Assembly (NCBI GenBank): GCA_903920145.1
Contig: CAIXKV010000178.1
Location: 1-64,000, forward strand
DNA from: an uncultured Rhodospirillales bacterium
GTDB lineage: Bacteria; Pseudomonadota; Alphaproteobacteria; Azospirillales; Azospirillaceae
Direction: 5' to 3'
DNA length: 64,000 nucleotides
Position 1 is the stretch's first letter. Every line of letters begins with the position of its first letter. Positions 3,600-21,053 of this stretch are shown here, one piece after another. Below the pieces are notes generated by a model. That model ran no database searches and had not been told where the DNA came from. It saw only the letters and a program-made list of their open reading frames with translations. The position numbers and the translations under genes were made by a program.

Positions 3600-3647
3600 A
3601 TACCGGCGAGCCGCTTTTAATGTGTCACCATTAAAGCTCGATGGTAT
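3600..3647. repeat. dispersed hairpin element, copy B (48-bp miniature form)
   Basis: The ends ATACCGGCGAGC and GCTCGATGGTAT match the two ends of the full-length elements and pair with each other except for GG/AT. Inside, TTTAATG and CATTAAA pair around the loop TGTCAC. In full-length copies the same position holds CCTTGATG/CATCAAGG around AGTCAC. Only the outer stem and this hairpin remain. It lies between the DctD sites and dctB. Confidence 0.75.
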
Positions 3648-3686
3648 GGATACCAACACCCGCCTTGCCGGGGGCCAAAACCCACC

Positions 3687-5555
3687 ATGAGCAGCAGCAA
3701 ATCCTGGCCTTCCGCCCCGCTCCCCCCTATGCCGCTTGCGGACGCAATCCCGACTTTGCGGCGCGCCTTACTGATCGCGCTGGCGATCGGACTGCCGGTG
3801 GTGGCGTTGGTTTCAGGACACTGGGCGGCCGTTTGGGCGCGAGCCGATTTGCTGGCCGCAAGCCAGGGAGCCCTTGAACTGTTCCGGGCTAATTTAGCCA
3901 GCGAAGTTGACAAGAATGAGGCAGTCCCGTTTCTGCTGGCCCGCGACCATGATGTGGTGGCCTTACTGGCGACTCCCGCCCTGACGACGGCTTCGGCCCT
4001 CACCGAACGTCTCAATCGGAAATTAGAGGATATTCAGAACGCTATACATGCCGCTGCTCTTTACGTCATGGATACGAAAGGATTGACCATCGCGGCCAGC
4101 AATTGGAACAGCGACGCCAGCTTCATCGGCCAAAATTTTAATTATCGCCCTTACTTTCATGCCGCCATGGCCGGAACGGTGGGCCGCTATTTTGCCCTGG
4201 GCACCACCTCTCATCAGCCCGGCTATTATATCGCTTATCCCGTGCGAGCGGAAAACCGCACAGTGGGCGCCGTGGTGATTAAAGTCGGGATGGAACGGAT
4301 CGAACAAAGCTGGAGCGCCGGCCCTGGACGGGTGGCCGTAACCGATGGTGATGGGGTGATTGTCATCACCAATATCGACCACTGGCGCTTTCACAGCCTA
4401 GCGCCCCTGCCCGCTTTGGATCGCGCCCGTATCGAGGCCAGCCATAAATACGACGACCTCGCCATCACGCCGCTTCCCATCACGATCCAAACTTTCGCAA
4501 CCGCCATGCCGTTCGGCCCAGCCCCTCCTCTGATGATCCTGTCTGACGCGGTGCCTGGCACCGATTTGACGTTGCATGTGCTATCGGACCCAACACCAAT
4601 TCGGACACGAGCCGTGGCGGCGGCCTTGATCGGCGGCCTTGCCGTGGTGATCGCCGTTCTGCTGGGATTTTTGGTGTTAGGCCGTTGGATTCGCGCTCAA
4701 GAGCGATTGGCCGAACAACAGCGGGCTCGGGAGGATGTGGAACGGCGGGTCCAGGAGCGCACGGCGGATCTAGCGGAAGCCTATGACCAACTCAGCCGGG
4801 AGATGCGCGAGCGAGAGCGCGCCGAGCACGTACTCCGAGCTGCGCAAATCGAGTTGGTGCAGGCCACTAAGCTGGCGGCCCTCGGCCAAATGTCGGCAGG
4901 GGTGGCCCATGAGATCAACCAGCCCCTCAGCGCCATTCGAGCCTTTGCCGAAAATGCCGTTACCTTGCTGGAACGGGGGCGCACCAGCACCGTTTACGAC
5001 AATCTAACCCAGATTGCCGAACTGACCCAGCGAATGGCCGGCATCACCCAGCATCTTAAAGGATTTGCCCGGAAAGCGGCTGGCACGTTGGGGCCGGTGT
5101 CCCTGCCCGAAACCATCAATAAGGCGTTGATGCTGGTGGCGCCGCAAATTCGTGCGGCGCAGATCGACGTGATCGGCGCACCCCATCACCCGCCGCCGGT
5201 TCTGGCCGAGGATGTCAGGCTGCAACAGGTGTTGGTCAATCTCTTCACCAATGCCATCGATGCCATGAAGGGCTGTCCGCACCCCTGCCTGACCCTGGAC
5301 ATCCATCACGAGCGTGAGCACGGCGAGGTCACGCTCCGGGTCCGCGACACCGGGCCAGGCATTGCCGCCGCCGACTTGCCTCATCTCTTTGTTCCGTTCT
5401 TCACCACCAAAGGCGCCACCGAAGGTCTGGGCCTGGGGCTGTCCATCACATCGGGCATCATTCAGGACTTTGGCGGCACCATTGCCGCCGCCAATCATGC
5501 CGATGGCGGCGCCGAATTCACCATCCGTCTTCGTGCCCTGGACTCCAACCCATGA
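3687..5555 (+). CDS. dctB: C4-dicarboxylate sensor histidine kinase DctB
   Basis: This membrane kinase senses periplasmic dicarboxylates and phosphorylates DctD. The 622-aa protein has a first membrane helix at about residues 28-48, a periplasmic double-Cache-like region to about 305 (with the NFNYRPYFHAAMAG segment typical of DctB), a second helix at about 310-333, and a helical linker. HisKA follows with GVAHEINQPLSAIR (His near 408), then HATPase motifs N (NLFTNAIDAMKG), G1 (DTGPGI) and G2 (GLGLGLSI). Its stop overlaps the dctD start by four bases (ATGA), so the two are translationally coupled. It is divergent from its presumed target dctA. Confidence 0.95.
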   Translation: MSSSKSWPSAPLPPMPLADAIPTLRRALLIALAIGLPVVALVSGHWAAVWARADLLAASQGALELFRANLASEVDKNEAVPFLLARDHDVVALLATPALTTASALTERLNRKLEDIQNAIHAAALYVMDTKGLTIAASNWNSDASFIGQNFNYRPYFHAAMAGTVGRYFALGTTSHQPGYYIAYPVRAENRTVGAVVIKVGMERIEQSWSAGPGRVAVTDGDGVIVITNIDHWRFHSLAPLPALDRARIEASHKYDDLAITPLPITIQTFATAMPFGPAPPLMILSDAVPGTDLTLHVLSDPTPIRTRAVAAALIGGLAVVIAVLLGFLVLGRWIRAQERLAEQQRAREDVERRVQERTADLAEAYDQLSREMRERERAEHVLRAAQIELVQATKLAALGQMSAGVAHEINQPLSAIRAFAENAVTLLERGRTSTVYDNLTQIAELTQRMAGITQHLKGFARKAAGTLGPVSLPETINKALMLVAPQIRAAQIDVIGAPHHPPPVLAEDVRLQQVLVNLFTNAIDAMKGCPHPCLTLDIHHEREHGEVTLRVRDTGPGIAAADLPHLFVPFFTTKGATEGLGLGLSITSGIIQDFGGTIAAANHADGGAEFTIRLRALDSNP

Positions 5556-6958
5556 CCGCTTCAGGACCATCTCCTCTGGAACCCTCTCCTCTGGAACCCT
5601 CTCCCGAAACCGGGCCGGTCCTGTTGATCGACGACGAAAAAGCGATCCGACTGGCCGGAACGCAAACCTTGGAACTGGCTGGTTTCGAGGTAGTCGCCCG
5701 TGCGTCCGCCGAAGACGGGTTGGCTCGCCTCGACGGTCCCGATTGGCCGGGCGTCGTAGTCAGTGACGTCCGCCTGCCCGGCATGGATGGCTTGGCGCTG
5801 CTCCGGCATTTGACGGCCATCGACCCCGACTTGCCGGTGGTGTTGATCACCGGCCATGGCGACGTCGCGATGGCGGTTCAGGCCATGAAAGAGGGCGCGT
5901 ACCACTTCATCGAAAAGCCATGGCCGGCGGATCATCTGGTCGAGGTGGTCCGCCGGGCTCTCGACAAGCGCCGTCTGGTCCTAGAGAATCGCCGTTTGCG
6001 GGCTCAGATTATCGGCGAAGCACGAGGCTTGGCGGCAATCATCGGACGATGCCCGGCCATGGAGCGGTTGCGCCAAACCATCGCCGCCGTAGCCGATACC
6101 GACGCTGATGTGCTGGTGCTGGGTGAAACCGGCTCTGGTAAGGAACTGGTGGCGCGGGCTCTGCACGATCATAGTCCCCGCCGTCGCCACCCTTTCGTCG
6201 CCCTCAATTGCGGCGCCCTGCCGGAAACCCTGGTGGAAAGCGAATTGTTTGGCCACGAAGCCGGCGCCTTTACCGGCGCTGCTCGCAAACGGGTGGGCCG
6301 CGTGGCCTTTGCCCATCATGGCACCCTGTTTTTGGACGAAATCGAAAGCATGCCCTTGACCCTTCAAGTCAAGATGCTGCGGGTTCTTCAGGAACGGGTG
6401 GTGGAACCCCTGGGTGGCAACCAGGCCGTGCCAGTGAATGTCCGGGTGATCGCTGCCACCAAAGTTGATCTGTCCGTAGCCTGCGCCAATGGCCGGTTCC
6501 GTCAGGATCTTTATTATCGCCTCAATGTGGTGCCATTGCGGATTCCGCCGTTGCGCGACCGGCTTGAAGACATCCCGCTCCTGTTCCAGCATTTCACACT
6601 TCAGGCCGGTCTGCGCCACCACCGCGACCCGCCTCTACCGTCTCCGGCTCTCAGCCGACGCCTACTCAGCCATCGCTGGCCGGGCAATGTCCGGGAGTTA
6701 CGGGCAGTGGCCGAACGCGTGGTGCTGGGGCTCGAAGATGGCTTGATCACCGAAGACAGCCCGCCACCCGCCGCCACCCTCGGCCACCGTTCCCTGGCCG
6801 AGCGGGTTGATCTCTTTGAAAAGAGCCAAATCGAAACCGAACTCGCGGCCCAACGCGGCAACATCAAAGCCACCCTTGAAGCCCTTGGCCTTCCCCGCAA
6901 AACCTTCTACGACAAAATGCGCCGCTACGGCCTCAGTCGGAACGATTACGTCGATTGA
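5552..6958 (+). CDS. dctD: sigma-54-dependent response regulator DctD
   Basis: DctD activates dctA transcription by RpoN polymerase. Order of domains: receiver (phospho-acceptor Asp near residue 72 in VVVSDVRLPGMDG, Lys in EKPWPADHL), AAA+ domain with Walker A GETGSGKE near 191, the sigma-54 contact loop GAFTGA, Walker B LFLDEIES, and a Fis-type helix-turn-helix at the C-terminus (GNIKATLEALGLPRKTFYDK). The first 20 residues contain an imperfect tandem repeat (PSPLEPSPLEPSPE) produced by a 15-bp DNA repeat at about 5576-5607, before the receiver begins. The ATG start overlaps dctB. Confidence 0.95.
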   Translation: MTASGPSPLEPSPLEPSPETGPVLLIDDEKAIRLAGTQTLELAGFEVVARASAEDGLARLDGPDWPGVVVSDVRLPGMDGLALLRHLTAIDPDLPVVLITGHGDVAMAVQAMKEGAYHFIEKPWPADHLVEVVRRALDKRRLVLENRRLRAQIIGEARGLAAIIGRCPAMERLRQTIAAVADTDADVLVLGETGSGKELVARALHDHSPRRRHPFVALNCGALPETLVESELFGHEAGAFTGAARKRVGRVAFAHHGTLFLDEIESMPLTLQVKMLRVLQERVVEPLGGNQAVPVNVRVIAATKVDLSVACANGRFRQDLYYRLNVVPLRIPPLRDRLEDIPLLFQHFTLQAGLRHHRDPPLPSPALSRRLLSHRWPGNVRELRAVAERVVLGLEDGLITEDSPPPAATLGHRSLAERVDLFEKSQIETELAAQRGNIKATLEALGLPRKTFYDKMRRYGLSRNDYVD

Positions 6959-7066: not shown

Positions 7067-9811
7067 ATGGCCGGTTCGTTGGTTGCCGTAGTGTCCTTCG
7101 CCTATCTGTTCGGATTGTTCGCCATTGCCTATTGGGCCGACCGTCGCGCGGACCTGGGCCGCAATATCATCGCCAATCCATCGGTCTATGCGTTGTCGCT
7201 GGCGGTCTATTGTTCGTCCTGGACTTTTTATGGCAGTGTTGGCCGGGCTGCCGAGACCGGAGTCGGATTCTTACCGATCTACCTTGGCCCGACTCTGATC
7301 ATGACCCTGGGCTTCGTGGTGATTGGCAAGATTTTGCGCATCGCCAAACGCCAGCGGACCACCTCGATCGCGGATTTCATCGCCACCCGCTATGGCAAAA
7401 GCCATCTGCTGGGCGGCCTTGTGACCGTGATCGCCGTGGTCGGGGTCACGCCTTATATTGCGCTTCAGCTCAAGGCCGTTTCGGTCAGTTTTGATGTGAT
7501 TTCGGGGGTTGATCCCACCGGCTTGGCCGAAAGGCTGCAACAACCGCCGCTCTTAGATAAGGCGTTCTACGTGGCCCTGATCATGGCCGCCTTCGCCATC
7601 ATTTTTGGTACCCGCCAGATCGACGCCGCCGAACATCATCCGGGTGTGGTCGCGGCGGTGGCGTTCGAGTCCGTGATCAAGCTGGTTTCGTTTCTCGCGG
7701 TGGGCCTGTTTGTTTGCTTCGGCCTTTATGACGGTTTTGGGCCGCTGTTCAGCCGAGCCATGGCCGATCCCACCATCGCCCATCTCTTTACCCATGGCTC
7801 GGCCCTGGGCGATGGAAGCTGGGTCACTTATGCCATTCTGGCGGCCCTCAGTTTTCTCTGCCTGCCCCGCCAGTTTCAAATCGTGGTGATCGAAAATGTC
7901 AGCGAGCGCCATCTGGGGCGCGCCATGTGGCTATTCCCGCTGTATCTGCTGGTGATCAATATCTTTGTGCTGCCCCTCACCGCCGCCGGTCTGGTCCAAT
8001 TCCCTGGCAACGCCGTCGCCCCCGATATGTTCGTGCTCGCCCTGCCCGCCTCCGCCGGTTGGCAGGGATTGGCGCTACTGGCCTATATTGGCGGATTGTC
8101 AGCAGCCACCGGGATGATCATTGTCGAATGCATCGCCCTCAGCACCATGGTCTGCAACGATTTGGTAACGCCGTTGTTGTTGCGCCTTCATGGGAACGCG
8201 TTGCGCGGCAGCACCGACCTCAGCCGGGTTTTGTTGCTGATCCGGCGCATGACCATCATCGGTGTCCTGCTGTTGGGATACGGCTATTACAGGTTTGCTG
8301 GCAACGCCTACAGCTTGGTTTCCATTGGCATGATCTCGTTCGCCGCTGTGGCTCAGTTCGCCCCGGCCCTTTTTGGTGGCCTTTTTTGGGCCGGCGGCAC
8401 CCGACGCGGCGCCGTCAGCGGCATGCTGGCCGGTATCGCGACCTGGGCCTACACCCTATTGCTGCCAACCGTCGCCCCGGCTGATTTCATGACTGCCGGC
8501 CCCTGGGGCCTGGAGATTCTTCGCCCTTACGCACTGTTCGGCCTGACCGACCTGGATCCGATCAGCCATTCGCTGTTTTGGAGCCTTCTGATCAATATCG
8601 GCCTCTACCTCGCCGTATCGCTCTTCGATCGCCCCTCTCTCAGCGAACGGGTCCAGGCCACGACGTTTGTCGAGGTTTTTCAGCAAACCGACCCGGCGGT
8701 GGTTCCGGGCCGTTGGCGGGGCAGCGCCACCGTGGAAGACCTGCAACGGCTGGTGGCCCGCTTTGTCGGACGCCAACGCGCCGAACAGGCTTTCAACCAA
8801 TATGGCGCCCGAAACAATGAGATTTCGTCCCCCCAGACCCAAGCCAGCGCCAGCTTGGTTCGGTTTGCCGAACGCCTGCTGGCGGGCGCCATCGGGGCCG
8901 CCTCGGCCCGAATCGCACTGGCTTCGGCTGTCAAAGAGGGCGAGTTCAGTATTCCCGAACTCATGCGGATGCTCGATGAAACCTCTCACGTCATCGAATA
9001 CAGCCGCCAACTCGAACAAAAATCCGCCGAGCTGGAGCGAACATCGGCGGCCCTGCGGGCTGCCAATGAACAATTACGAGAACTGGATCGGATGAAGGAT
9101 GACTTCCTCTCGACCGTCACTCATGAGTTACGGACTCCATTAACGTCGATCCGGGCTTTTTCCGAAATTCTGTATGATGACCCCGAATTGGCGATCGAGC
9201 AGCGGCAAGAATTTTTAGGGCTGATCATCAAAGAAAGTGAACGATTAACCCGCCTTATTAACCAAGTTTTGGACTTTGCAAAAATTGAATCCGGTCAAAT
9301 CAATTGGATCATCGAACCCATAGACCTAGGAGAGGTGATGGAGCAGGCGGTCGCTTCCACCAGTCAACTGTTCCGCGATAAAAATGTGGTCCTTAAAATG
9401 AGCATCGCCCCATCCGTGCCGACAGTGCGGGGCGATTATGATCGGTTAATGCAAGTTGCGGTTAACCTATTATCCAATGCCGTTAAATTTACGCCTAACG
9501 ATGGCCGCGTCGAAGTTTCCGTTCGTTCCGATGGCCATTTTGGTCGCGTTGATGTCCGGGATAATGGGCCTGGAATTGCACCGAAAGATACCCGCATTAT
9601 CTTTGATCGCTTTCGACAGGTTGGCAACACCATGACCAACAAGCCCCAGGGAACCGGCCTGGGTCTTGCCATCTGCCTCCGCATTGTCGAGCATCTTGGA
9701 GGCCGGATTTGGGTGGAAAGCCAATTGGGCGCTGGAGCCACTTTCAGCTTTACGATTCCCAGCTCTCCCGCCCCCGCAAGCAGCAACTCCGAAACCGCTA
9801 CGGTTGCCTGA
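7067..9811 (+). CDS. sodium/solute symporter-fused sensor histidine kinase (SSS-STAC-HK, CbrA-like)
   Basis: The 914-aa protein joins a transporter to a kinase. Residues 1-520 form about 13 hydrophobic helices of the SLC5/PutP type, beginning with MAGSLVAVVSFAYLFGL and containing the RRADLGRNIIANP and YGSVGRAAETG features of CbrA-like sensors. A STAC-like segment (VEDLQRLVARFVGRQRAEQAF) follows near 560-585. A coiled coil leads to HisKA (STVTHELRTPLTSIR, His near 685) and a complete HATPase ([27 protein letters not shown]). There is no PAS or receiver domain, and no adjacent response regulator except the chemosensory cheY 580 bases on. CbrA-type kinases sense nutrients; the ligand here is unknown. 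Confidence 0.85.
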   Translation: MAGSLVAVVSFAYLFGLFAIAYWADRRADLGRNIIANPSVYALSLAVYCSSWTFYGSVGRAAETGVGFLPIYLGPTLIMTLGFVVIGKILRIAKRQRTTSIADFIATRYGKSHLLGGLVTVIAVVGVTPYIALQLKAVSVSFDVISGVDPTGLAERLQQPPLLDKAFYVALIMAAFAIIFGTRQIDAAEHHPGVVAAVAFESVIKLVSFLAVGLFVCFGLYDGFGPLFSRAMADPTIAHLFTHGSALGDGSWVTYAILAALSFLCLPRQFQIVVIENVSERHLGRAMWLFPLYLLVINIFVLPLTAAGLVQFPGNAVAPDMFVLALPASAGWQGLALLAYIGGLSAATGMIIVECIALSTMVCNDLVTPLLLRLHGNALRGSTDLSRVLLLIRRMTIIGVLLLGYGYYRFAGNAYSLVSIGMISFAAVAQFAPALFGGLFWAGGTRRGAVSGMLAGIATWAYTLLLPTVAPADFMTAGPWGLEILRPYALFGLTDLDPISHSLFWSLLINIGLYLAVSLFDRPSLSERVQATTFVEVFQQTDPAVVPGRWRGSATVEDLQRLVARFVGRQRAEQAFNQYGARNNEISSPQTQASASLVRFAERLLAGAIGAASARIALASAVKEGEFSIPELMRMLDETSHVIEYSRQLEQKSAELERTSAALRAANEQLRELDRMKDDFLSTVTHELRTPLTSIRAFSEILYDDPELAIEQRQEFLGLIIKESERLTRLINQVLDFAKIESGQINWIIEPIDLGEVMEQAVASTSQLFRDKNVVLKMSIAPSVPTVRGDYDRLMQVAVNLLSNAVKFTPNDGRVEVSVRSDGHFGRVDVRDNGPGIAPKDTRIIFDRFRQVGNTMTNKPQGTGLGLAICLRIVEHLGGRIWVESQLGAGATFSFTIPSSPAPASSNSETATVA

Positions 9812-10079: not shown

Positions 10080-10394
10080 ATGGTGGCGCTAATCAAATGG
10101 AATGAGGAGGGCGGTCATGTCAAACTTGGACTGCCCTCCGATCTTGATTTGCCTATGGCACAACCGCTTGTTGACAGCTTACGCCACGCCTTCACCGTTG
10201 GCGATGTGATCGAGATTTTAGCTGATAGTGTTGAACGGGTCAGTACCGCGTGCATTCAGGCCCTATTGGTTGCATCCCGCACTGCCGCCGAGAGCCGGCA
10301 GACATTCGCGATCGTTGCTCCGTCGGTTCCTTTCGTCGAGGCCTGTTCTGACCTCGGCTTGGCCAGCTGGCTGAATCAATGGAGGCGGTCGTGA
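10080..10394 (+). CDS. STAS-domain protein at the head of the chemosensory operon
   Basis: This 104-aa protein has the STAS fold pattern: a LGLPSDLDLPMAQPLVDSL strand-helix, then DSVERVSTACIQALLVASRTA, where an anti-sigma-factor antagonist carries its phosphorylatable Ser/Thr. An AAGGAGAG site precedes the ATG. Its stop overlaps the GTG of cheY. Similar small STAS proteins open many alphaproteobacterial che operons. Its partner is unknown; the HATPase protein further down the same operon is a candidate. Confidence 0.8.
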   Translation: MVALIKWNEEGGHVKLGLPSDLDLPMAQPLVDSLRHAFTVGDVIEILADSVERVSTACIQALLVASRTAAESRQTFAIVAPSVPFVEACSDLGLASWLNQWRRS

Positions 10395-10756
10395 AAAAAA
10401 AGGTGCTGACCGTCGATGATTCGCGCACTATGCGCGAAATGGTTGCTTTCACCTTGAAAGGGGCCGGTTACGAGGTGGTCGAAGCCAATGATGGCCAACA
10501 CGCCTTGACTGTGTTGGGAAACGACAAAGTTGATCTGGTGATCGCCGACCTCAACATGCCGATCATGGATGGCCTAACCCTGATTCGCAAGCTTCGGGCG
10601 ACTCCCCAATATCGTACCACGCCCATCTTGATGCTGACCACCGAAGCCGACGATAAGAAAAAGGCCGAAGGGCGTGCTGCTGGCGCCACCGGCTGGATCG
10701 TTAAACCATTCGATCCCAGCAAGCTGATCTCGGTCGTACAAAAGGTTTGCGGCTGA
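10391..10756 (+). CDS. cheY: chemotaxis response regulator CheY
   Basis: A single receiver domain (121 aa). The acidic pair is in VLTVDDSRTMRE, the phospho-acceptor is in LVIADLNMPIMDG, and the conserved Thr (MLTTEAD) and Lys (IVKPFDPSKL) are present. GTG at 10391 is preferred over ATG at 10379 because GGAGG at 10381-10385 is placed correctly for it, and GTGA overlaps the stop of the STAS gene. The output, flagellar motor or the partner-switching module downstream, cannot be told from sequence. Confidence 0.93.
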   Translation: MKKKVLTVDDSRTMREMVAFTLKGAGYEVVEANDGQHALTVLGNDKVDLVIADLNMPIMDGLTLIRKLRATPQYRTTPILMLTTEADDKKKAEGRAAGATGWIVKPFDPSKLISVVQKVCG

Positions 10757-10816
10757 CCTGCCCTCCAGGACTACGCCGGCACGCCTGGACGCCGTCAGAA
10801 ACGGGAGGATGCTCTC

Positions 10817-13015
10817 TTGGAAGACCTGCAACAGTTCAAGCAGACCTATTTCGATGAAAGCGGCGAATTCTTGGCGGTGGCCGAGGCCGGGTTGTTGCGG
10901 CTTGCTCCGGGGAACGTCGATCTTGATGAAGTAAATGCAATCTTCCGGGCCGTCCACTCGATTAAAGGCGGTGGCGGCGCATTTGGTTTTTCTGAATTGG
11001 TCGCCTTCGCCCATGAATTTGAAACCGTCATGGATGGTGTACGCAGTTGCACCATCGCCGTCACCGACGCGTTGGTCAATACACTGATTCGGGCAAACGA
11101 CATTTTAGCGCAACTGCTAGCCCATGCCCGCGATGGGACTAAACCGGAACTAGGTTTTGCTGATCCTGTGGTTGTGGCCCTGCGGCACCATGCACAGACT
11201 GCCGCCGACGCCGTCCAGGAGTCCCCGGCCCCTTCGACGCCAGTGACAAACCTCCCCGAGACGGTTTCAAGAGTCGTAACGGTTCGCTTCCAGCCCAAAG
11301 CCGATCTGTTGATGACCGGCAACGATCCGACCTTCATGCTCCGGGCCTTGACTCATCTGGGCGCCGCCGAGATCGAATGCGACGTGGGAGGGCTACCAAC
11401 TCTGGCCCACCTTGAGCCAGAGCTGCTGTATCTCCAATGGCTGGTCACGCTAACCACCGACGCGAGCTTGGTCGATATTCAGGACGTCTTTGAGTTTGTC
11501 AGCGACGACAGCTTAGTCGAAATCACCGAGCACAGCGCCGACGGTGCGAGCCCGACCGCCAGCCCCTCTGAAACCGATGAGGCCGCAGGCGGCGCCGTCA
11601 CCCCCAACAGCCCTGGAGGGCTGGCCCCAGCGACACGCACCGAAGCCACGGTGGCCACAGTGGCGGGCGCCGCGTCACCCAGTCAGCTTGCCCTTTACGA
11701 GGCTTCCGCTCCGGCTCTTGCCGCTGGGGACAGCAAGGCCGCAGCAGGAAAATCCTCGACCGCCGGAGACGGCGCCCATTTGAATTTGGGTGGCCATACC
11801 ATCCGAGTCGACCTCGATAAAATTGACCGGCTGGTCAATATGGTCGGCGAGATGGTGATCACCCAGGCGATGGTTGCCGAGCATGTCCGCGATCTGCCGC
11901 CCGGCCAATTCCAAGAGTTGTTGGAGGGTCTGGAGCAACTGGCCCAACACACACGGGAATTGCGCGAAAGCGTCATGTCAATTCGGGCCCAACCCGTCAG
12001 CTCGGTCTTCTCGCGGATGCCCCGCTTGGTGCGCGAGTTAAGCAGTGAAACCGGAAAAGACGTGGTATTGATCACCGCCGGCGAAAACACCGAGGTGGAT
12101 AAGACCGTGGTCGAAAATCTGGTCGACCCGCTGACCCACATGATTCGCAACTCTATCGATCACGGATTGGAAAAACCCGACGACCGCGAGGCCGTCGGCA
12201 AGCCGCGAACCGGGACTGTCCATTTATCGGCTCAACATCGCTCGGGCCGGATCGTCATCGAAGTTGCCGATGATGGCCGGGGTATCGATCGACCCAAGGT
12301 CTTACAAACCGCAATCAAGCGTGGGTTGGTCCAGCCGGGGATCAATCTCAGTGATGAGGAAATCGATAATTTAATTTTTGTCCCCGGCTTTTCCACCGCT
12401 GATAAAATCTCCAATATCTCTGGTCGCGGCGTTGGCATGGATGTGGTCCGCCGCAATGTCAGCAATCTCGGTGGCCGCATCGGAGTCTATTCGGCTCCAG
12501 GTCAGGGCTCCCGCTTTGTGCTGTCTTTACCTCTGACCTTGGCCGTCCTGGACGGGATGGTGATTTCAGTCGGACTCGAACGCTTTGTGCTGCCCTTGAC
12601 CAACATCGTTGAAAGCTTACGGCCCAAGGCGACTGATCTTCATGGTCTGGTCAATCGGTGTGATGTCATGATGGCACGCGGTGAATATGTCCGATTGGTC
12701 TATCTGCACCAACTGTTCGGGATTCCCGATGCCATTGTCGACGCAACCAAGGGTTTGGTGGTTCTGGTCGAAACCGAAGATGGCGGGCGGTTGGGCTTGG
12801 TGGTGGATGAGGTGCTGGGCCAGCAGCAGGTGGTGATCAAAAGCCTCGAGTCTAATTATCGTCGCCTTGACGGCGTGGCAGCGGCGACCATCCTCGGTGA
12901 TGGTCGGGTTGCCCTGATTCTAGACGTGGCCGGTTTACAGGAAATGAGCCAACACGCCCGCTCTCCGGCATCACGGTCAGTTGCCGACGCCGCAATTCAA
13001 CTTCCAGCCCTGTGA
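10817..13015 (+). CDS. cheA: chemotaxis histidine kinase CheA
   Basis: The 732-aa kinase starts with an Hpt domain (His47 in IFRAVHSIKGGGGAFGF). An Ala/Pro-rich linker at about 240-315 follows a DUF-like alpha/beta segment that may be the P2 region. Then come a dimerisation helix pair (LDKIDRLVNMVGEMVITQAM), the HATPase domain (HMIRNSIDHGLE, DDGRGID, ISGRGVGMDVVRRN) and a CheW-like domain at the end. The start is TTG at 10817, eight bases after GGGAGG. All catalytic motifs look intact. It should phosphorylate CheY, CheB and possibly the two response-regulator phosphatases in the operon. Confidence 0.93.
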   Translation: MEDLQQFKQTYFDESGEFLAVAEAGLLRLAPGNVDLDEVNAIFRAVHSIKGGGGAFGFSELVAFAHEFETVMDGVRSCTIAVTDALVNTLIRANDILAQLLAHARDGTKPELGFADPVVVALRHHAQTAADAVQESPAPSTPVTNLPETVSRVVTVRFQPKADLLMTGNDPTFMLRALTHLGAAEIECDVGGLPTLAHLEPELLYLQWLVTLTTDASLVDIQDVFEFVSDDSLVEITEHSADGASPTASPSETDEAAGGAVTPNSPGGLAPATRTEATVATVAGAASPSQLALYEASAPALAAGDSKAAAGKSSTAGDGAHLNLGGHTIRVDLDKIDRLVNMVGEMVITQAMVAEHVRDLPPGQFQELLEGLEQLAQHTRELRESVMSIRAQPVSSVFSRMPRLVRELSSETGKDVVLITAGENTEVDKTVVENLVDPLTHMIRNSIDHGLEKPDDREAVGKPRTGTVHLSAQHRSGRIVIEVADDGRGIDRPKVLQTAIKRGLVQPGINLSDEEIDNLIFVPGFSTADKISNISGRGVGMDVVRRNVSNLGGRIGVYSAPGQGSRFVLSLPLTLAVLDGMVISVGLERFVLPLTNIVESLRPKATDLHGLVNRCDVMMARGEYVRLVYLHQLFGIPDAIVDATKGLVVLVETEDGGRLGLVVDEVLGQQQVVIKSLESNYRRLDGVAAATILGDGRVALILDVAGLQEMSQHARSPASRSVADAAIQLPAL

Positions 13016-13025
13016 GGCCATCCCG

Positions 13026-13562
13026 ATGAGCAAACCCTCTTCTCTCGCCACCATTGGCAGTGTTCGCGGCGATGTTGTGGCTGCCGCCAACACCAATGAA
13101 GAACAATACGTCACCTTTACCGTTGGTAACGAGGAGTATGGCGTCAATATCCTCTCGGTTCGTGAGATCAGAGGGTGGACCCCGGAAAGCCGCCTGCCCA
13201 ATCTGCCCGATTATGTGCGGGGTGTGATCAATCTGCGCGGTATCATTATTCCGATCTTTGATCTGCGCGCCCGTTTTGGCGGTGGAACCACCGAAGTCAC
13301 CAAGCGCCATGTGGTGGTGGTGGTTCAGGTCGGGGAGCGCACACGCGGAATTCTTGTGGATGCGATTTCGGATATTCTGGCCATCTCTCGGGACCAAATC
13401 AAATCCCCTCCGACCATGGAAACCGGCATGGTCGACTCTCAATATCTGAGCGGTCTTTTCACCGCCGAAAATCGCATGGTTACACTTCTGGATGTGGCTC
13501 GCCTTTTCGCGGTAGAAACCGGCGATGATGAACACTCCAACCAGCGCGCCCTTGTCAACTGA
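13026..13562 (+). CDS. cheW: chemotaxis coupling protein CheW
   Basis: CheW links receptors to CheA. The 178-aa protein has the typical core: QYVTFTVGNEEYGVNILSVREI, LPDYVRGVINLRGIIIPIFDLR and VDAISDILAI. The ATG at 13026 is chosen because it lies just after the cheA stop with a GAGG nearby; earlier in-frame codons would overlap cheA. There is a short non-conserved tail after LFAVETGDD. Confidence 0.93.
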   Translation: MSKPSSLATIGSVRGDVVAAANTNEEQYVTFTVGNEEYGVNILSVREIRGWTPESRLPNLPDYVRGVINLRGIIIPIFDLRARFGGGTTEVTKRHVVVVVQVGERTRGILVDAISDILAISRDQIKSPPTMETGMVDSQYLSGLFTAENRMVTLLDVARLFAVETGDDEHSNQRALVN

Positions 13563-13701
13563 CCCATCGTTTCAAGGCCTGATTATCGCATACACAACCC
13601 AAGAGGTTAATAAGATCGGTCGGCGGTGCCGAGTGAAAGGGTTGTCTTCTTGTGCTGAGTTTCATACTTTCAACACCACCACGTCAACTCATAGCCGGGT
13701 C

Positions 13702-14616
13702 ATGGTTCAGTATTCACCATTCGTCGCCAAAGACCCAAACGGCCCCTCGCCTCGGGCAGTGCCCTCGCCGGAGCGGCGCGAATTTCATTTCGATCGCGGT
13801 CACTTTGATTTTATCGCGGCACTCCTTTATCGTCTGGCTGGCATCCATCTGGCGCCGCACAAAGTTGAGATGGTCTATTCGCGGTTAGCCCGGCGTCTGC
13901 GAGAGTTGGGCCTTAAGGATTTTGACGCCTATTGCGCTCATCTGGACAGCGAAAGCGGCGAACAGGAAATCGGTTTTCTGGTCAATGCACTCACCACCAA
14001 TCTGACCAGCTTCTTTCGCGAACGACACCATTTTGATCACTTAGGCAGTGTGGTGTTGCCGGCAGTCCGCGAGGCCCAGGCGAACGCCGTGCGGCCTCGC
14101 TTGCGGATATGGTCGGCGGGCTGTTCATCTGGCCCCGAGCCTTACACCATGGCCATGATTCTGTGCGATCGGATTCCCGATTTGCGGCGATGGGACGTCC
14201 GTATCCTAGCCACCGATATCGACACACACATGGTCACGACGGCCAGAAACGGCCTGTACTCGGTTGAATCGCTTAAGACCATCCCGCCGGCCCTACGAGA
14301 CCGATTCACCCGGCGCGTTGTCTCCGGGGACGGAGATGTCATGATTTCCATGAGCGAGGAACTGCGGCGCCTCATTACCTTCAAGCCCCTAAATTTGCTT
14401 GAGTCCTGGCCAATGCGAGGACCATTTGACGCCATTTTCTGTCGCAATGTTCTGATTTATTTTGATCGACCGGGCCGCACGGCGGTGATTGAAAATTTCG
14501 CCGAACTTCTTTCGCCTGACGGCTTTCTTTACCTTGGACATTCCGAAAGCCTATATGGCGTTTCCAGCGGCTTCCTTCAGGTCGGCCCGACCATCTACCA
14601 GAGAACAACACGATGA
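13702..14616 (+). CDS. cheR: chemotaxis protein methyltransferase CheR
   Basis: CheR methylates receptor glutamates using S-adenosylmethionine. Visible features: the N-terminal helical domain (FIAALLYRLAGIHLAPHKVEMVYSR, cut here into its parts), LTTNLTSFFRERHHF, the SAM-binding WSAGCSSGPEPYT, ILATDID, and DAIFCRNVLIYFD. ATG at 13702 gives 304 aa, the usual length. The same frame is open back to 13525, which would overlap cheW and add about 59 residues without CheR character. Its stop overlaps cheD by four bases. Confidence 0.9.
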   Translation: MVQYSPFVAKDPNGPSPRAVPSPERREFHFDRGHFDFIAALLYRLAGIHLAPHKVEMVYSRLARRLRELGLKDFDAYCAHLDSESGEQEIGFLVNALTTNLTSFFRERHHFDHLGSVVLPAVREAQANAVRPRLRIWSAGCSSGPEPYTMAMILCDRIPDLRRWDVRILATDIDTHMVTTARNGLYSVESLKTIPPALRDRFTRRVVSGDGDVMISMSEELRRLITFKPLNLLESWPMRGPFDAIFCRNVLIYFDRPGRTAVIENFAELLSPDGFLYLGHSESLYGVSSGFLQVGPTIYQRTTR

Positions 14617-15239
14617 GCGAGCTTCCTCCCAGGCGCCCTAATGATCAACGTAACGCTGGGACTTATTATCACCCGCATTTCGACGCCCATATTGTCAAAG
14701 TCATGCTCGGCCAACATAAAGTCAGTGGCCGGGTCGACGAAATGCTGGTGACAACGCTTGGCAGTTGTGTTGCTGCCTGTATCCGCGATCCGGTCGCTGT
14801 GATTGGTGGCATGAACCATTTCTTGCTCCCCGAGGTGCCTGACGGCACCAGCGATAACGACAACGCCGCCGCCCGGTATGGCAGCGTGGCGATGGAATTG
14901 CTGATCAATCATATCCTGGCCCAAGGTGGCCGCCGGAATCGACTGGAGGTCAAGGTGTTCGGCGGCGCCAAAGTGATCGACACCAGCCTTGATATCGGCG
15001 CCAAGAATGCCGAGTTCGTGCTGTCTTATCTACGGCGCGAGGGGTTGAACTTGGTCGGACAGGATCTGGGGGGCGCGTCAGCACGTCGCATCCATTATTT
15101 TCCCACCACAGGCCGAGTGTTACGCCGTACTCTGCGGCCCGAAGTCCTTTCGGAGACCGTTCGTCAGGAGCTCAACTTCCTGTCCACGCTCCGTCACAAA
15201 CCGATCGAGGGCGACGTCGAGTTGTTTGGAGACGATTGA
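14613..15239 (+). CDS. cheD: chemoreceptor glutamine deamidase CheD
   Basis: CheD deamidates receptor glutamines. The catalytic Cys is in VTTLGSCVAACIRD and the catalytic His in IGGMNHFLLPE, with the Thr region IGAKNAEFVLSYLRREGL following. The ATG at 14613 overlaps the cheR stop. The protein ends GDVELFGDD; the same GDVELF string closes the soluble receptor two genes on (see findings). Confidence 0.92.
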   Translation: MSELPPRRPNDQRNAGTYYHPHFDAHIVKVMLGQHKVSGRVDEMLVTTLGSCVAACIRDPVAVIGGMNHFLLPEVPDGTSDNDNAAARYGSVAMELLINHILAQGGRRNRLEVKVFGGAKVIDTSLDIGAKNAEFVLSYLRREGLNLVGQDLGGASARRIHYFPTTGRVLRRTLRPEVLSETVRQELNFLSTLRHKPIEGDVELFGDD

Positions 15240-15240
15240 C

Positions 15241-16302
15241 ATGGCCAAGCTCGTCCGGGTGGTTATCGTGGACGACAGCAATCTGATGCGACGATTGCTG
15301 ACGGCGGCATTGTCGCGCGATCATGATATTGAAATTGTAGGGTCAGCCTGCGACCCTTACGAAGCCCGGCAGGTCATCAAGGATACCAATCCTGATGTCA
15401 TCACCTTGGATATTGAAATGCCCAGGATGGATGGTCTGTCGTTTTTGGAAAAAATCATGACGTTGCGGCCAACCCCGGTCGTGATGGTCTCCAGCCTGAC
15501 CCAAGCGGGTTCCGACGCGACCATCCGGGCGCTGGAACTCGGCGCGGTTGATTATGTCGGCAAGCCGGCGGGGTCCGAAGGGTTCGGGTTTCAAGACGTC
15601 GTGGACGAGCTGATTGATAAAATCAAAATGGCCGCATCGGCCCGAGTCACGCCGCTGCGTCGGGTTCAGACGCCGCCACCTCCCTTGTTGTCTCCTCGCC
15701 ATATGGATAGCTGGTCGTTCATCGCCATCGGAGCATCAACTGGAGGGGTAGAGCGAATCCGCGATATCCTTCAGGTCATGCCCCCCGATTGCCCCCCCAT
15801 CGTGATCACCCAGCATATGGGCCCGAGCTATCTGGCCAGTTTCGCCGACCGCTTGGATCGGATCAGTCCGCCGACAGTGACGTTGGCGACTCACGGTGCC
15901 CGATTGCAGCGGGGTACAGTCTATATCGCTCCTGGTGATCGCCATCTGGCGGTGGCACGGGAAGCATCGGGGTATGTTTGCCAGATTCAAGACGCCCCCC
16001 TCGTCAGTGGTCACAGGCCGTCAGTGGATGTCCTCTTCCACTCGGTCGCCAAAGTGGCCGGCCCCAAAGCCGTTGGCGCGATTCTCAGCGGCATGGGACG
16101 CGACGGCGCCGCTGGGTTGACCGCCATGCGGGCCGCTGGTGCTCACACCGTCGGCGAGCAAGAGTCGAGTTGCGTTGTTTACGGAATGCCCCGCATGGCG
16201 AAAGAAGCCGGCGGCGTTGTGCTTGAATTACCTTTGGCGCATATTGCGCCCGAGCTGTTGCGGGCGATCGACGCGATCGGCGACCGGCCACGGATGAATT
16301 AG
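15241..16302 (+). CDS. cheB: chemotaxis response regulator/protein-glutamate methylesterase CheB
   Basis: CheB removes receptor methyl groups when phosphorylated. The receiver ([14 protein letters not shown]; Asp in [18 protein letters not shown]) is followed by the methylesterase domain with catalytic Ser in [11 protein letters not shown], His in [17 protein letters not shown], and Asp in [12 protein letters not shown]. The ATG at 15241 is used; a TTG at 15226 in frame would overlap cheD and add five residues. The catalytic triad is complete. Confidence 0.93.
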
Positions 16303-16315
16303 GAGGCGGTTGGTC

Positions 16316-17476
16316 ATGGTCTTCGCTTGGTCGCGGAAGAAAGCTGAAGCTGTTGGCCAAGGCAGCGTTGTGACGTCTGTACGGCTTGAGCCCGAGGCGC
16401 CGTCTGCGGTCGACCCATCGGATTTCGACTATACCCTGTTAGGGCAATGGATTGGCTTCGCCGACCTTCAGCGCCACACCATGGAGGTATTGCGAGGGGA
16501 GATCGAGCGGACTTCGGAGTTGGTTGAAGATTCCACCCTCGATCTCAGTCGCCGTTTCCGTGAGCTGGCCGAAACGGCTCGCGAACAGACACATCGGGTC
16601 GACGAGATTGTGGCTATGGCCCGCTTTGTCGAAATCGATGGTGCCAAGGTGCCGCTCGATGAGTTGGTCACCAATATGCAAGAGATCATCGGTGAGATGA
16701 TCGCCAACATCGTCAATCTGTCGATGAAGGCCATGAGCATGGTTTACCTTTTGGATGATGTTCAAAAGGACGTGACCGAGCTGGAAAAGAGCATTTCGGA
16801 TATCGATGGGATCAACCGCCAAACCAATTTCCTGGCACTGAACGCGACCATCGAGGCGAGTCGGGCGGGCGAGGCTGGCCGGACCTTCGCGGTGGTGGCC
16901 AACGAAGTTCGGAACCTGTCGAAAACCACGAGTGCGCTCGCCCAACGAATGCGCGATAAGATCACAGCGGTGGTCAACGGGGTTCGGCAGGGCCATGATA
17001 TTTTGCGAACAATCGCCAACACCGACATGTCACCGCAAATGTTGGCCAAGGAACGGGTCGACAAGACCATGGATAGCTTGGTCGACCAAACCAATCACTT
17101 CAAGGATGTTTTGGAAGGAACAGCCGCTTCATCGGGAGAATTGTCTACGGTGATTGGGCGTATGGTCACTGGAATGCAGTTCCAGGATTTGACCAAGCAA
17201 CGGTTGGAACATGTCGCCGATAGTATGACGGTCATGAGCGGCGGCCTTGAGGATCTGGTGTCCCGAACTCGGGCGGTGATTCCCGCTCACGTCGAAATTC
17301 CTTTTCCTCAAGAATGGATCGACCAGCTTCTTGGCCGTTACACGCTGACCGAAATGCGCCAACGATTTGTACGACGGTTGCTTCTGGAAGGAACGGCTCT
17401 CGATGAACATGGCATTCTTGACCTGAGCAACGAACCGACACAGAGTAGCAGCGGCGGAGATGTCGAGCTGTTCTGA
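16316..17476 (+). CDS. soluble methyl-accepting chemotaxis-type receptor
   Basis: This cytoplasmic receptor has no membrane segment. The N-terminal 60 residues show nothing recognised. Helical coiled-coil sequence follows, with the receptor tip [25 protein letters not shown] (quoted here in pieces: [23 protein letters not shown]) near residues 180-205. The C-terminal third ([22 protein letters not shown]) resembles the helical region seen in CheZ-like and other soluble signalling proteins. It ends with GDVELF. The start is the ATG at 16316 after AGGAGG at 16302-16307; a GTG-like start two codons earlier is possible. It most likely provides the input to the CheA of this operon. Confidence 0.85.
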
Positions 17477-17533
17477 TCACATGAGGCGGTTGGGCCTCTA
17501 GGCAAGATTTCAGATCGAAGGATAACAAGACAG

Positions 17534-17839
17534 ATGGACTATGCCATCGATATCAAGGAACAAGAGGCTCTTGTTCGCATGTCGGGCCGTCTGACGTTTA
17601 ATGATCACGCCAAATTGCGCGCCTTGATCAAAGAAATGTCACAGAATGCGGTCAAACGTCAAATTCTTGACCTCGCCAGCCTTGAGTTTGTGGATTCGGC
17701 TGGGATCGGCATGCTTCTGATTGCCCGCGAAGAACTGTCGAATTTGGACAAACAGTTCATCCTGCGCAAAGCCGGCGGCCAAGTGAAAAGGGTGCTCACG
17801 GTCGCCCAGCTCGGCAAGCTCATCACGATCGAAGAATAG
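17534..17839 (+). CDS. STAS-domain anti-sigma factor antagonist (SpoIIAA/RsbV type)
   Basis: A 101-aa STAS protein. It contains LASLEFVDSAGIGMLLIAREEL, in which the Ser of DSAG is the residue phosphorylated in SpoIIAA/RsbV proteins. It lies 57 bases after the receptor gene and ten bases before the HATPase gene. In partner switching the unphosphorylated antagonist binds the kinase and frees its target. The two SpoIIE-type phosphatases downstream are the natural activators. Confidence 0.9.
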   Translation: MDYAIDIKEQEALVRMSGRLTFNDHAKLRALIKEMSQNAVKRQILDLASLEFVDSAGIGMLLIAREELSNLDKQFILRKAGGQVKRVLTVAQLGKLITIEE

Positions 17840-17848
17840 GCGCAAACC

Positions 17849-18583
17849 GTGGCGCCCCCTCCCGCCGTCGCCCTACACAGTCTGGGTTTCCCAGCCGAAC
17901 GGCTGGCGGACCTTGCGGCTGCCGCACATTTGCCTTTATGGCGCTCTGAAACAGACGGCATCAATGGCCGTGCGGACCCGTTGTCCTCACGAGTCCTGGT
18001 TCTTTTAGGTCATGCCTGGGAAGATCAGCTGGCCGGTACCTGGACTCACCCGTACACCGCCTGGATTGAAGTGGCTGCGCTGGCCGATCACTCGATCCTT
18101 GAGCTGATCCAGCGCGCTGTTGAAACCAGCCTGTATATCTCCTTCACCACCATCACGGCCAATCGCCGGGATCTGGCTGGAGAGTTGCTCTCGGTGATCG
18201 GTCAGCGCCGCACTTTATCTCATGACAGCCGAGATAACATGGAACTAGCGCTCCATGAGGCCCTGAGCAACGCCGTTCTCCACGGGAATCTTCAACTGGA
18301 AAGCCTGTCCGGCCTCAGTGTTGAAGCCCTTGAGCGCTTTTCCAATGATTTGACAGGTCGGATCACCGACCCGGATTTTGCCAATCGCCGCATTGACGTG
18401 ATCTGTAATTTGGATGTCGACGCTGTAATCATCGACGTCGTGGATCAAGGCAAAGGCTTCTTCCTGAAACCGAAGACCGAACCCTTGGCCAGCGGGCGTG
18501 GTTTTGATTTAATCGGCGTCAGTTGCCAGTCATTTCAATTGCTTGACGGCGGTCGACGATTGAGCATGAGGTTTCCGGTATGA
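17849..18583 (+). CDS. HATPase_c_2 serine kinase (anti-sigma-factor-like) with extra N-terminal domain
   Basis: The 244-aa protein ends in an RsbW/SpoIIAB-like ATPase domain (about residues 130-244): N-box NMELALHEALSNAVLHGN and G1 box DVVDQGKGF. The first 130 residues form a region I do not recognise, with strand/helix pattern and WTHPYTAWIEVAAL. The start is GTG at 17849, just after the STAS stop. It overlaps the next gene by four bases (ATGA). No sigma factor gene is nearby, so its regulated target is unknown. Confidence 0.8.
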   Translation: MAPPPAVALHSLGFPAERLADLAAAAHLPLWRSETDGINGRADPLSSRVLVLLGHAWEDQLAGTWTHPYTAWIEVAALADHSILELIQRAVETSLYISFTTITANRRDLAGELLSVIGQRRTLSHDSRDNMELALHEALSNAVLHGNLQLESLSGLSVEALERFSNDLTGRITDPDFANRRIDVICNLDVDAVIIDVVDQGKGFFLKPKTEPLASGRGFDLIGVSCQSFQLLDGGRRLSMRFPV

Positions 18584-19812
18584 CCCCAGAGCTGCCATCG
18601 GCGCCAGTCGGAGGGGTGGCAAGAGGACGGCCATCGGTTACCGACAGCCCGATTTTGGTGGTTGATGATATTGCGTGGAACCGGGCCTTAATCGGCACGC
18701 TGTTAGAGGAAGCCGGGTACACCCGAATCCGTTATGCGGTCGATGGCCTGGACGCCCTGAATAAGATTGGCGAGGAAACACCGGATCTGGTCATCCTCGA
18801 CATCATGATGCCTCATCTTGACGGGTTCGAGGTGTGTCGGCGGCTGCGGGCCAACCACGCCTACGCCGACTTGCCGGTACTGGTCCAAACAGCCCTTTCG
18901 GGTGTCGAGGATCGCAACCGAGCTTTTGATGCCGGCACCACCGATCTGGTGATGAAGCCGCTGGACCGCACCGAATTGCTGGCGCGAGTCAACATCCACT
19001 TGGAAAACCGGGCCTTAATTCGCGGCCTTCAAGCCTACCGAGATCGGCTTGAAGGTGAATTGGCGATGGCCCGCAGCATCTTCGACCATCTATTGCCCGC
19101 CGAATCCGCCTTGGCCGCGTTGGAAAAAAGCAGCGGCCTCCGCATCCGCTCTCACATGGCTCGGGCCTCGGAATTGGGCGGGGATGTTTGGGGCACGGTT
19201 CAGTTGGGTAAAGGCCGATTTGGGATTTATCTGCTCGATACGGCGGGCCGGGGGGTCTCGGCAGCCCTGAATGTCTGCCGGCTCCATACGTTGGTTCAGG
19301 AGTTGGTGGGGTTTGGCCACTCCCCGGCCCGGTTTCTCCAAGAGCTGAACCGTCGCGCCGACGACTTGCTGGTCGGAGGTGAATATGCGGCGATGATTTA
19401 CGGCGTGGTCTCTCCGGCAACGGATCGCTTTACCTACGCCTGCGCTGCCGCCGGACCGCCGCTGTTGCTCCTGCCTGGTGCCGATGCGACCTTTTGCGAT
19501 ACCACAGGCTTGCCGCTGGGCGTTACAGCCGACGCCAAATACGAACAGCACACCCTACCCTTCCCTCCCGGTGCGGCGGTGATGCTTCACAGCAACGCTA
19601 TTCTTGATGCTCTTGACGATCGGGCTGCGTCCGGTACCCGTCAGAGCCTTGCTGAACTGGTGGCCGGACCATGGCTGACCCATGGTCAACAGAACGCTTT
19701 CCCCGCCATTGTCGAGAAGTTGGGCGCGGTGGTTGACAACCCTCCCAAGGACGACCACACCCTGGTTTGGCTAGCCCGCCCCGGCCCGCCTGCCCCGGAT
19801 GGTACGGGGTAA
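18580..19812 (+). CDS. response regulator with SpoIIE/RsbU-type PP2C phosphatase domain (first copy)
   Basis: Residues 25-140 are a receiver (VVDDIAWNR, Asp in VILDIMMPHLDG, Lys in VMKPLDRTE). A helical linker leads to a SpoIIE-type phosphatase at about 190-405 with GGDVWG and a final PKDDHT. Where the family and the next gene have DxSGHG, this copy has DTAGRG. It should dephosphorylate the STAS antagonist when its receiver is phosphorylated, possibly by CheA. It starts inside the stop of the kinase gene. Confidence 0.88.
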   Translation: MTPELPSAPVGGVARGRPSVTDSPILVVDDIAWNRALIGTLLEEAGYTRIRYAVDGLDALNKIGEETPDLVILDIMMPHLDGFEVCRRLRANHAYADLPVLVQTALSGVEDRNRAFDAGTTDLVMKPLDRTELLARVNIHLENRALIRGLQAYRDRLEGELAMARSIFDHLLPAESALAALEKSSGLRIRSHMARASELGGDVWGTVQLGKGRFGIYLLDTAGRGVSAALNVCRLHTLVQELVGFGHSPARFLQELNRRADDLLVGGEYAAMIYGVVSPATDRFTYACAAAGPPLLLLPGADATFCDTTGLPLGVTADAKYEQHTLPFPPGAAVMLHSNAILDALDDRAASGTRQSLAELVAGPWLTHGQQNAFPAIVEKLGAVVDNPPKDDHTLVWLARPGPPAPDGTG

Positions 19813-19865
19813 AGCTCCTCCTGCACTGAAGGCCAGGGGATTCCAGAGACGAGGCAACGGGTGTG

Positions 19866-21053
19866 ATGGGCAGTGACCGGTTGGATGCCAAAGATCAATT
19901 CGCCGACCTACGGGACGCGCGGGTCATGGTGGTGGATGACAACCGTGTCAACCGCCATCTGTTGGTTGCGCTTTTGGAGCGAGGCGGCATCACTCGAGTC
20001 GATCTCGCCGAAGACGGCGAGCAAGCCTTGGCCAAAGTCGGTGTGTTCAAGCCGGATTTGATTCTCCTAGACCTGATGATGCCCCACCTGGACGGCTTTG
20101 AGGTTTGCCGTCGGCTGCGCGCGGATCCCGCTTATGTCGACCTGCCAGTTCTGGTCCAAAGCAGCCTCAACCGATCAGAAGACCGCGCCCGCGCCTTTGC
20201 CGCCGGAGCCACCGACTATGTCAGCAAGCCGATCAACGCCATAGAACTGCTATCGCGAGTCCGCATCCATTTGCAAAACCGCATGCTGTTGAACAGCCTG
20301 CAACTTTACCGCCAACGCACCGCCGCCGAATTAACTTTGGCCTGCAAGATGCAGGAGCGGTTGATGCCCCAGCGGCCTCATCTGGACCGAATTCGCCAAC
20401 GGCTCGGTCTCAGTCTTGCTGCCCATTTTGCGCCATCGTCGGAACTGGGGGGCGACTTCTGGGGTCTGTGCTGTGACAGCCGTGACCAACTGGTGCTGTG
20501 GCTGGTGGACTTTTCCGGACACGGCATCGGTGCAGCCCTCAATACCTTTCGGCTTCACGCCATCCTGAACCAGTTTGATTTTTCCGCCTTTGATCCAGCT
20601 ACGTTTCTGGGCATCGTCAACCGGCGCCTTTGCCCACTGCTTCCCAGCGGCCAATACGCGACGATGCTGGCTGGCGTTATTGACCGAGACCATGATCAAT
20701 TTTTATATGCCTCGGCAGGCGCCACCAGACCCATGACATGGGCGGTGGATGCCACCGAGCCAACCTTTGGAGACAACACCGGCTTGCCGCTCGGCCTGAC
20801 AGCGTCTGCTGATTACGAAAATCGCACCTTGCCTCTGCCAGCGGGCGGAAAGTTGTTTCTTTACAGCGATGCTGCGGTTGAACTGCCGGTCGGAAATGGC
20901 ATTCTTGACGAAATTGGCCTGGAAGCCCTGGTGATTCAGCATATGGCCGAACCCGATGGTCAAACGCTGTTGCTGCGTCTGTTGACGGCCCTGACGGCTC
21001 TAGGGAATTTTGACGACGATCTCACCGCCTTGGTGGTGACCCGCGAACGCTGA
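19866..21053 (+). CDS. response regulator with SpoIIE/RsbU-type PP2C phosphatase domain (second copy)
   Basis: A paralogue of the preceding gene. The receiver is at about 18-135 (VVDDNRVNRHLL, LILLDLMMPHLDG, VSKPINAIEL). The phosphatase domain carries GGDFWG, VDFSGHGIGAALN and the closing NFDDDLTAL, so all metal-binding acidic residues are in place. GTG at 19863 and ATG at 19866 are both possible; I use ATG. Two phosphatases with separate receivers suggest two inputs to one partner-switching module. Confidence 0.88.
   Translation: MGSDRLDAKDQFADLRDARVMVVDDNRVNRHLLVALLERGGITRVDLAEDGEQALAKVGVFKPDLILLDLMMPHLDGFEVCRRLRADPAYVDLPVLVQSSLNRSEDRARAFAAGATDYVSKPINAIELLSRVRIHLQNRMLLNSLQLYRQRTAAELTLACKMQERLMPQRPHLDRIRQRLGLSLAAHFAPSSELGGDFWGLCCDSRDQLVLWLVDFSGHGIGAALNTFRLHAILNQFDFSAFDPATFLGIVNRRLCPLLPSGQYATMLAGVIDRDHDQFLYASAGATRPMTWAVDATEPTFGDNTGLPLGLTASADYENRTLPLPAGGKLFLYSDAAVELPVGNGILDEIGLEALVIQHMAEPDGQTLLLRLLTALTALGNFDDDLTALVVTRER

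Follow-up and report, generated by a model that had tools for sequence, protein, structure and literature searches.

A predicted partner-switching module within a probable F7 chemosensory operon of the Azospirillaceae

Chemosensory gene clusters of the F7 type termed 'stage 1' have been described in gamma- and betaproteobacteria, the two classes covered by a gene-order analysis (Ortega et al., 2020; PMC7184735). They display the order STAS-cheY-cheA-cheW-(cheW)-aer2-like-cheR-cheD-cheB-mcpA-like-STAS-serine phosphatase, and what stage 1 and 2 F7 systems do was termed unclear in 2020 (PMC7184735). The closest worked example is CrsR-CrsA of Shewanella che1, which is encoded in an F7 operon (PMC9855816). 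CrsR, the only worked F7-linked case, binds sigma S (PMC6482189, PMC9855816). Described here is a related locus in an uncultured Rhodospirillales bacterium of the Azospirillaceae (contig CAIXKV010000178.1, positions 1 to 64,000, a stretch of 64,000 nucleotides termed the window). Positions 10080-21053 carry twelve genes, all on the + strand. Eight are chemosensory (STASa, cheY, cheA, cheW, cheR, cheD, cheB and a soluble receptor) and four form a putative switch: STASb, a HATPase kinase, and two receiver-SpoIIE genes termed RS1 and RS2. An earlier sequence-only reading of this DNA had listed the same genes in the same order, and all are present at the positions it gave, each with a Pfam match above cut-off.

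The window operon has a gene order nearly identical to that of the stage 1 clusters, and as in those clusters the order ends with STAS and serine phosphatase functions. It differs in three ways: a single cheW in place of two; no Aer2-like receptor gene after cheW in the window's genus, where cheR follows directly; and, where stage 1 clusters have a serine phosphatase, a separate kinase gene plus two receiver-SpoIIE genes, one of them for a protein predicted to be catalytically dead. Judged by gene order and domain content, the block is the alphaproteobacterial form of the published stage 1 layout, and in outline this layout was already known (PMC7184735). What is new is RS1 as a predicted pseudophosphatase, STASa as a probable CheS-like protein, and the finding in other F7 clusters of fusions between kinase and receiver-phosphatase in both orders.

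The stage 1 layout was recovered in three gammaproteobacterial loci (L152-L154), where a fusion of receiver, PPM phosphatase and HATPase domains stands at the end; L154 gave no match for a second receptor. Two loci of other alphaproteobacteria (L143, L160) display STASb, then a receiver-PPM gene and then a HATPase gene, all separate, and one alphaproteobacterial F7 cluster (L122) encodes a single HATPase-receiver-PPM protein. No HATPase-receiver-SpoIIE fusion was found outside alphaproteobacteria at an E value of 1e-40 among 398 genomes sampled from the phylum. As fusions exist in both orders, they are good evidence that these domains work together.

The reading favored here, with a probability of about 0.6, is that of an F7 operon with two outputs, in which CheA drives both CheY with the flagellum and a switch made of RS1, RS2, STASb and the HATPase protein. 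Gene content and order, conservation, catalytic states, duplication and fusions are read from the sequences; we infer phosphotransfer, the direction of its effect, the client and the role of RS1. The receptor would signal to CheA, which would pass phosphate to CheY for flagellar steering and also to the RS1 and RS2 receivers. Once phosphorylated, RS2 would dephosphorylate STASb at Ser55, and the HATPase protein would re-phosphorylate it. When free of STASb, the HATPase protein would hold a client that is probably a sigma factor or some other regulator. RS1 probably tunes the switch: it might pair with RS2 via its linker helix, occupy STASb without dephosphorylating it, or act as a phosphate sink. 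STASa would be a CheS-like partner of CheA.

The kinase, antagonist and phosphatase of a partner switch are present. The HATPase protein consists of an N-terminal alpha/beta domain and an RsbW/SpoIIAB-like kinase domain, and the residues of its N and G boxes (E137, N141, D199, G201, G203, G216 and G218) are invariant in 22 sequences. An AlphaFold2 model (predicted local distance difference test score, pLDDT, 86.9) has Foldseek matches to RsbW and SpoIIAB, both over the kinase domain, and to LvrC. The putative phosphoacceptor of STASb, Ser55, lies in the motif VDSAGIG, and this serine is invariant (58/58 rows). Together with the ATP-binding motifs and the SpoIIE phosphatase RS2, these features support a partner-switching module built into the chemosensory operon. 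The N-terminal domain of the HATPase protein was also considered as a decayed receiver, a proposal that was rejected: its best Foldseek match is LvrC, a receiver plus anti-sigma domain protein, and a receiver profile comparison was negative.

Of major interest are the two receiver-SpoIIE proteins, which the sequence-only reading had treated as equal phosphatases. This proved incorrect, as only RS2 retains a catalytic site. Every phosphatase residue is intact in RS2 (44/44 complete rows), while in the RS1 protein of the window Asn340 occupies the position of SpoIIE Asp746, an Mn-binding residue (PMC3517971, the source for residue roles). This metal-binding aspartate is lost in 42 of 43 rows of the RS1 group, the sole exception (L112) being a locus without an F7 cluster. 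With L112 and the window set aside, the loss is found in all relatives with the same switch (41/41), although four loci were entered twice (L038/L077, L041/L075, L047/L089, L049/L097), which leaves about 37 distinct loci. Further catalytic positions are lost in many rows. The RS1 receiver, on the other hand, has its five phosphorylation residues intact in 43/43 rows. A structural model of RS1 (pLDDT 87.5) keeps the PPM fold and displays a 42-residue linker helix; the nearest PDB entry is RssB. RS1 is thus a receiver-bearing protein predicted from sequence to be a catalytically dead pseudophosphatase, and, consistently retained as such, it is a new part.

RssB of Escherichia coli, a receiver-PP2C protein without an active site (PMC7226468), resembles RS1 in domain content and provides the nearest solved structures. 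RS1 differs in that it is the sister of an active phosphatase of its own operon, and there is no sign of a protease-adaptor role. In a tree the RS1 and RS2 groups form sister clades (support 95/95; RS2 clade, 91/94), so one duplication preceded the spread of the two-gene form.

It might be argued that RS1 is functionless and merely decaying toward loss, as its phosphatase domain has diverged more quickly than the RS2 one (orthologue identity 0.479 vs 0.634) and as Pfam finds only the receiver in RS1 of one genome (G028). This appears very improbable. The gene is retained in every syntenic locus with the two-gene switch, its receiver, with all five residues kept, is about as conserved as that of RS2 (0.728 vs 0.751), and the loss of the site predates the spread of these lineages. 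A tuning role for RS1 within the two-output operon is preferred. RS1 separates receiving phosphate from removing it, and the two receivers are predicted to do different jobs.

The sequence-only reading had proposed a search of relatives for the same gene order, and this order is shared by about 40 loci from Azospirillum, Skermanella and Rhodospirillales, a number that excludes a chance arrangement. Neighbourhoods of 20 kb were compared in the window's genus and other genera of its family, and a second, named collection of Azospirillum, Skermanella and further Azospirillaceae and Rhodospirillales genomes gave the same picture. The conserved block begins with STASa and ends with RS2, while the flanking genes vary. 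A gene for a large receptor separates cheW from cheR in most relatives but is absent from the window's genus. The window CheA is 61-85% identical to the CheA proteins of syntenic family loci. The family sample comprises 59 genomes including the window's own, with F7 cheA counted at a score of at least 690 bits. By this measure 35/59 genomes have F7 cheA and all of these have the switch (35/35), which is on one contig with F7 cheA in 32 and on separate contigs in three (G002, G004, G020). Among genomes without F7 cheA, the switch is found in 1/24 (G009). A divergent copy of the whole block is present in G028, one of the F7-bearing genomes, where other sampled members of the genus do not have it. 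No plasmid-borne copies were found. In G020 the operon is split over two large contigs (C1 and C2; L128, L129) around the large receptor gene, owing either to a rearrangement or to misassembly.

The likeliest phosphodonor for the RS1 and RS2 receivers is CheA. It is the only histidine kinase within the conserved block, and its P1 domain, with the histidine in VHSIKGG, belongs to the Hpt type; an Hpt protein, HptB, drives the homologous HsbR (PMC6482189). Several observations weigh against the two-output reading. The co-occurrence counts come from related genomes and are not independent events. The F7 cluster of G093 has no adjacent switch. G009 and G098 keep STASb-HATPase-RS1-RS2 without F7 cheA, and a scan of the neighbouring genes found no histidine kinase beside the switch, so another donor must serve there. 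These two genomes weaken the case for CheA as sole donor. In addition, no client gene is linked to the switch, and neither RpoS, SigB/F nor FliA was recognised among the sigma-70-family genes of the window genome.

The same two genomes favor a different reading, namely that another kinase serves the RS1 and RS2 receivers and that the switch is merely co-expressed with the che genes. One candidate is a large histidine kinase whose N-terminal half is transporter-like, encoded upstream of the operon at 7067-9811 and found at this position in the A. brasilense group as well; a kinase from some other part of the genome is another. A second switch in the window genome, described below, indicates that ordinary kinases can drive such a chassis. 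This reading is nevertheless unlikely. Outside the window's genus and the A. brasilense group the upstream kinase is not conserved at its position, and most loci with the same operon lack it; as a universal donor it was rejected on this ground. The conserved block holds no further kinase, and both fusions and gene order connect the switch with F7 operons of alpha- and gammaproteobacteria. CheA as donor to both outputs therefore remains the preferred reading.

The second STAS-HATPase-receiver-SpoIIE switch of the window genome is on contig C187 at 198-2553 (L050). It is divergently oriented from two adjoining kinase genes, one for a PAS histidine kinase and one for a hybrid kinase that carries an Hpt domain, a neighbourhood that suggests that the same switch chassis can be plugged into different phosphodonors. 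A copy of this second switch is also found in A. brasilense-type loci just beyond RS2, in the opposite orientation.

The che4 operon of Azospirillum brasilense, called F7 in PMC6759762, has the same gene order as the window operon. It includes Tlp4a, a receptor whose PAS domain is flanked by HAMP domains (PMC6759762), and the HAMP-PAS-HAMP receptor found between cheW and cheR in an A. brasilense-type locus (L036) fits that account. A Tlp4a-like receptor is missing from the window's genus. Over the aligned part, the window CheA shares 70-76% identity with the CheA proteins of the che4-matching Azospirillum loci. CheA4 and CheY4 are reported to control swimming reversals of the polar flagellum and to be required for chemotaxis (PMC8100600). 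Because of this control of reversals, the motor remains an output; fliM is present in the window genome. The sequence-only reading had proposed an output 'rather than, or besides' the motor: 'besides' is in agreement with these observations, whereas 'rather than' is unlikely.

CrsR-CrsA of Shewanella oneidensis and HsbR-HsbA of Pseudomonas aeruginosa consist, as here, of a receiver, a PP2C phosphatase, a switch kinase and a STAS antagonist, and CrsRA is encoded in a che operon as is the window switch. They differ in that receiver, phosphatase and kinase form one fused protein in CrsR and HsbR but three proteins here (HATPase, RS1 and RS2), and CrsR has no pseudophosphatase partner. The target of CrsR-CrsA is RpoS, which was not found in the window genome: no protein reaches the RpoS cut-off, the best being RpoD with 293 of 379 bits. 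The sigma factors of the genome are RpoD, RpoN, three sigma-32-type and three ECF-like factors. The statement of the sequence-only reading that no sigma factor is encoded nearby holds for the whole contig, where a search found neither a sigma-70-family nor a sigma-54 gene. The third sigma-32-type factor (contig C151, 10829-11035) is divergent and falls below all NCBIfam sigma-32 cut-offs. It would be a first client candidate, though nothing ties it to the switch.

With no sigma-factor gene linked, the switch might act back on the array or the motor, through CheA, the receptor or a motor protein, and not on transcription. Sigma factors are not the only possible targets of STAS proteins, as HsbA binds the cyclase HsbD (PMC6482189), and the F7 Che4 system is a motility system in A. 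brasilense (PMC8100600). We consider such a target improbable. The kinase is predicted to be RsbW/SpoIIAB-like, the sole worked F7-linked protein, CrsR, binds a sigma factor (PMC6482189, PMC9855816), and loss of CheA4 has large transcriptional effects (PMC8561660). A sigma factor or another regulator is thus the preferred client of the switch.

In A. brasilense, the rpoN and nifA promoters are inactive once cheA4 is lost, an effect that runs via 'unidentified regulator(s)' (PMC8561660). Lying at the 3′ end of the che4-type operon, the switch genes provide a concrete candidate between CheA4 and these promoters, in an organism that is workable in the laboratory for a testable route from CheA to gene expression. 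CheA feeding the paired receivers of RS2 and RS1 in one shared switch, with RS1 gating or opposing RS2 depending on phosphorylation, might produce a threshold-like expression switch and be the missing link from CheA4 to rpoN and nifA; this is a tentative proposal. Text searches of PMC8561660, PMC8100600, PMC6759762 and PMC6406031 gave no mention of switch genes at the 3′ end of che4. A literature search for the combination of che genes and switch found nothing relevant, which is no proof that nobody noticed it. Two points lift the locus above the routine: a receiver-pseudophosphatase that is retained throughout, and the fit to a question still open in a bacterium that has been studied in depth.

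Both STAS proteins were considered as antagonists, and this was rejected for STASa. A STASa gene just before cheY-cheA is also found in Rhizobiales-type clusters that have no switch (L144, L145, L150), with the order STAS-cheY-cheA-cheW-cheR-cheB-cheY-cheD. The phosphoacceptor column of STASa is not conserved (T/S in 21/32, A/G/V in 11/32), compared with a serine in 16/16 for STASb. CheS of Sinorhizobium meliloti, which binds CheA (PMC12654446, PMC4214558) and hastens the loss of CheY1-P, is a small STAS protein encoded just before cheY-cheA, the position of STASa. Based on this position, the occurrence without a switch and the variable column, STASa is probably a CheS-like CheA partner and not a second antagonist; the signs of homology are its location and a weak profile match.

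CheD and the McpA-like receptor have in common a C-terminal motif, G[DE][IV][DE]LF, encoded at 15210-15227 and 17459-17476 of the window. The tail is kept in alpha- and gammaproteobacterial F7 clusters (L143, L152-L154, L160), and in several of these the Aer2-like receptor ends in WxEF. The common tail suggests that CheD and the receptor have the same binding partner. DVELF as a genome-wide docking motif was rejected: it is found directly before a stop codon only on this receptor.

The features of the block are given in Table 1. The start of cheR is uncertain; CheR_N first matches at residue 93 and a later start is possible. The chemosensory and switch halves, said in the sequence-only reading to follow each other without a break, are separated by 57 bases (receptor/STASb) with no terminator-like site on the + strand, and RS1/RS2 by 50. 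Gaps are short in relatives as well, with medians of 56.5 (receptor/STASb), 9 (STASb/HATPase), -1 (HATPase/RS1) and -4 bases (RS1/RS2). The ATGA overlaps noted earlier are true 4-base overlaps at two junctions, cheR/cheD at 14613 and HATPase/RS1 at 18580; elsewhere there are other overlaps (16 bases for STASa/cheY; 38 bases for cheW/cheR with the cheR start at 13525) or gaps.

Table 1. Genes of the conserved block in the window
Feature	Coordinates	Strand	Basis
STASa, probably CheS-like STAS-domain protein, opens the conserved block	10080..10394	+	Pfam STAS_2
cheY, single receiver	10379..10756	+	Pfam Response_reg, E 7.5e-29
cheA, F7-type: Hpt (P1), dimerisation, HATPase and CheW-like domains	10817..13015	+	Pfam
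cheW	13026..13562	+	Pfam CheW, E 6.9e-39
cheR, start uncertain	13525..14616	+	Pfam CheR, CheR_N
cheD, C-terminal GDVELF motif	14613..15239	+	Pfam CheD
cheB, receiver and methylesterase	15241..16302	+	Pfam
Soluble McpA-like receptor, GDVELF end	16310..17476	+	Pfam MCPsignal; kept in relatives
STASb, putative partner-switch antagonist	17534..17839	+	Pfam STAS; NCBIfam ant_ant_sig above cut-off
HATPase, putative switch kinase	17849..18583	+	Pfam HATPase_c_2, alignment, AlphaFold2 model, Foldseek
RS1, receiver and predicted pseudophosphatase	18580..19812	+	Metal Asp lost, PPM fold kept
RS2, receiver and intact SpoIIE-type phosphatase	19863..21053	+	Catalytic residues intact

Further upstream, at 2062-6958, the window encodes a dicarboxylate symporter, a dCache histidine kinase and a sigma-54 activator, which has the appearance of a dctA-dctB-dctD locus.

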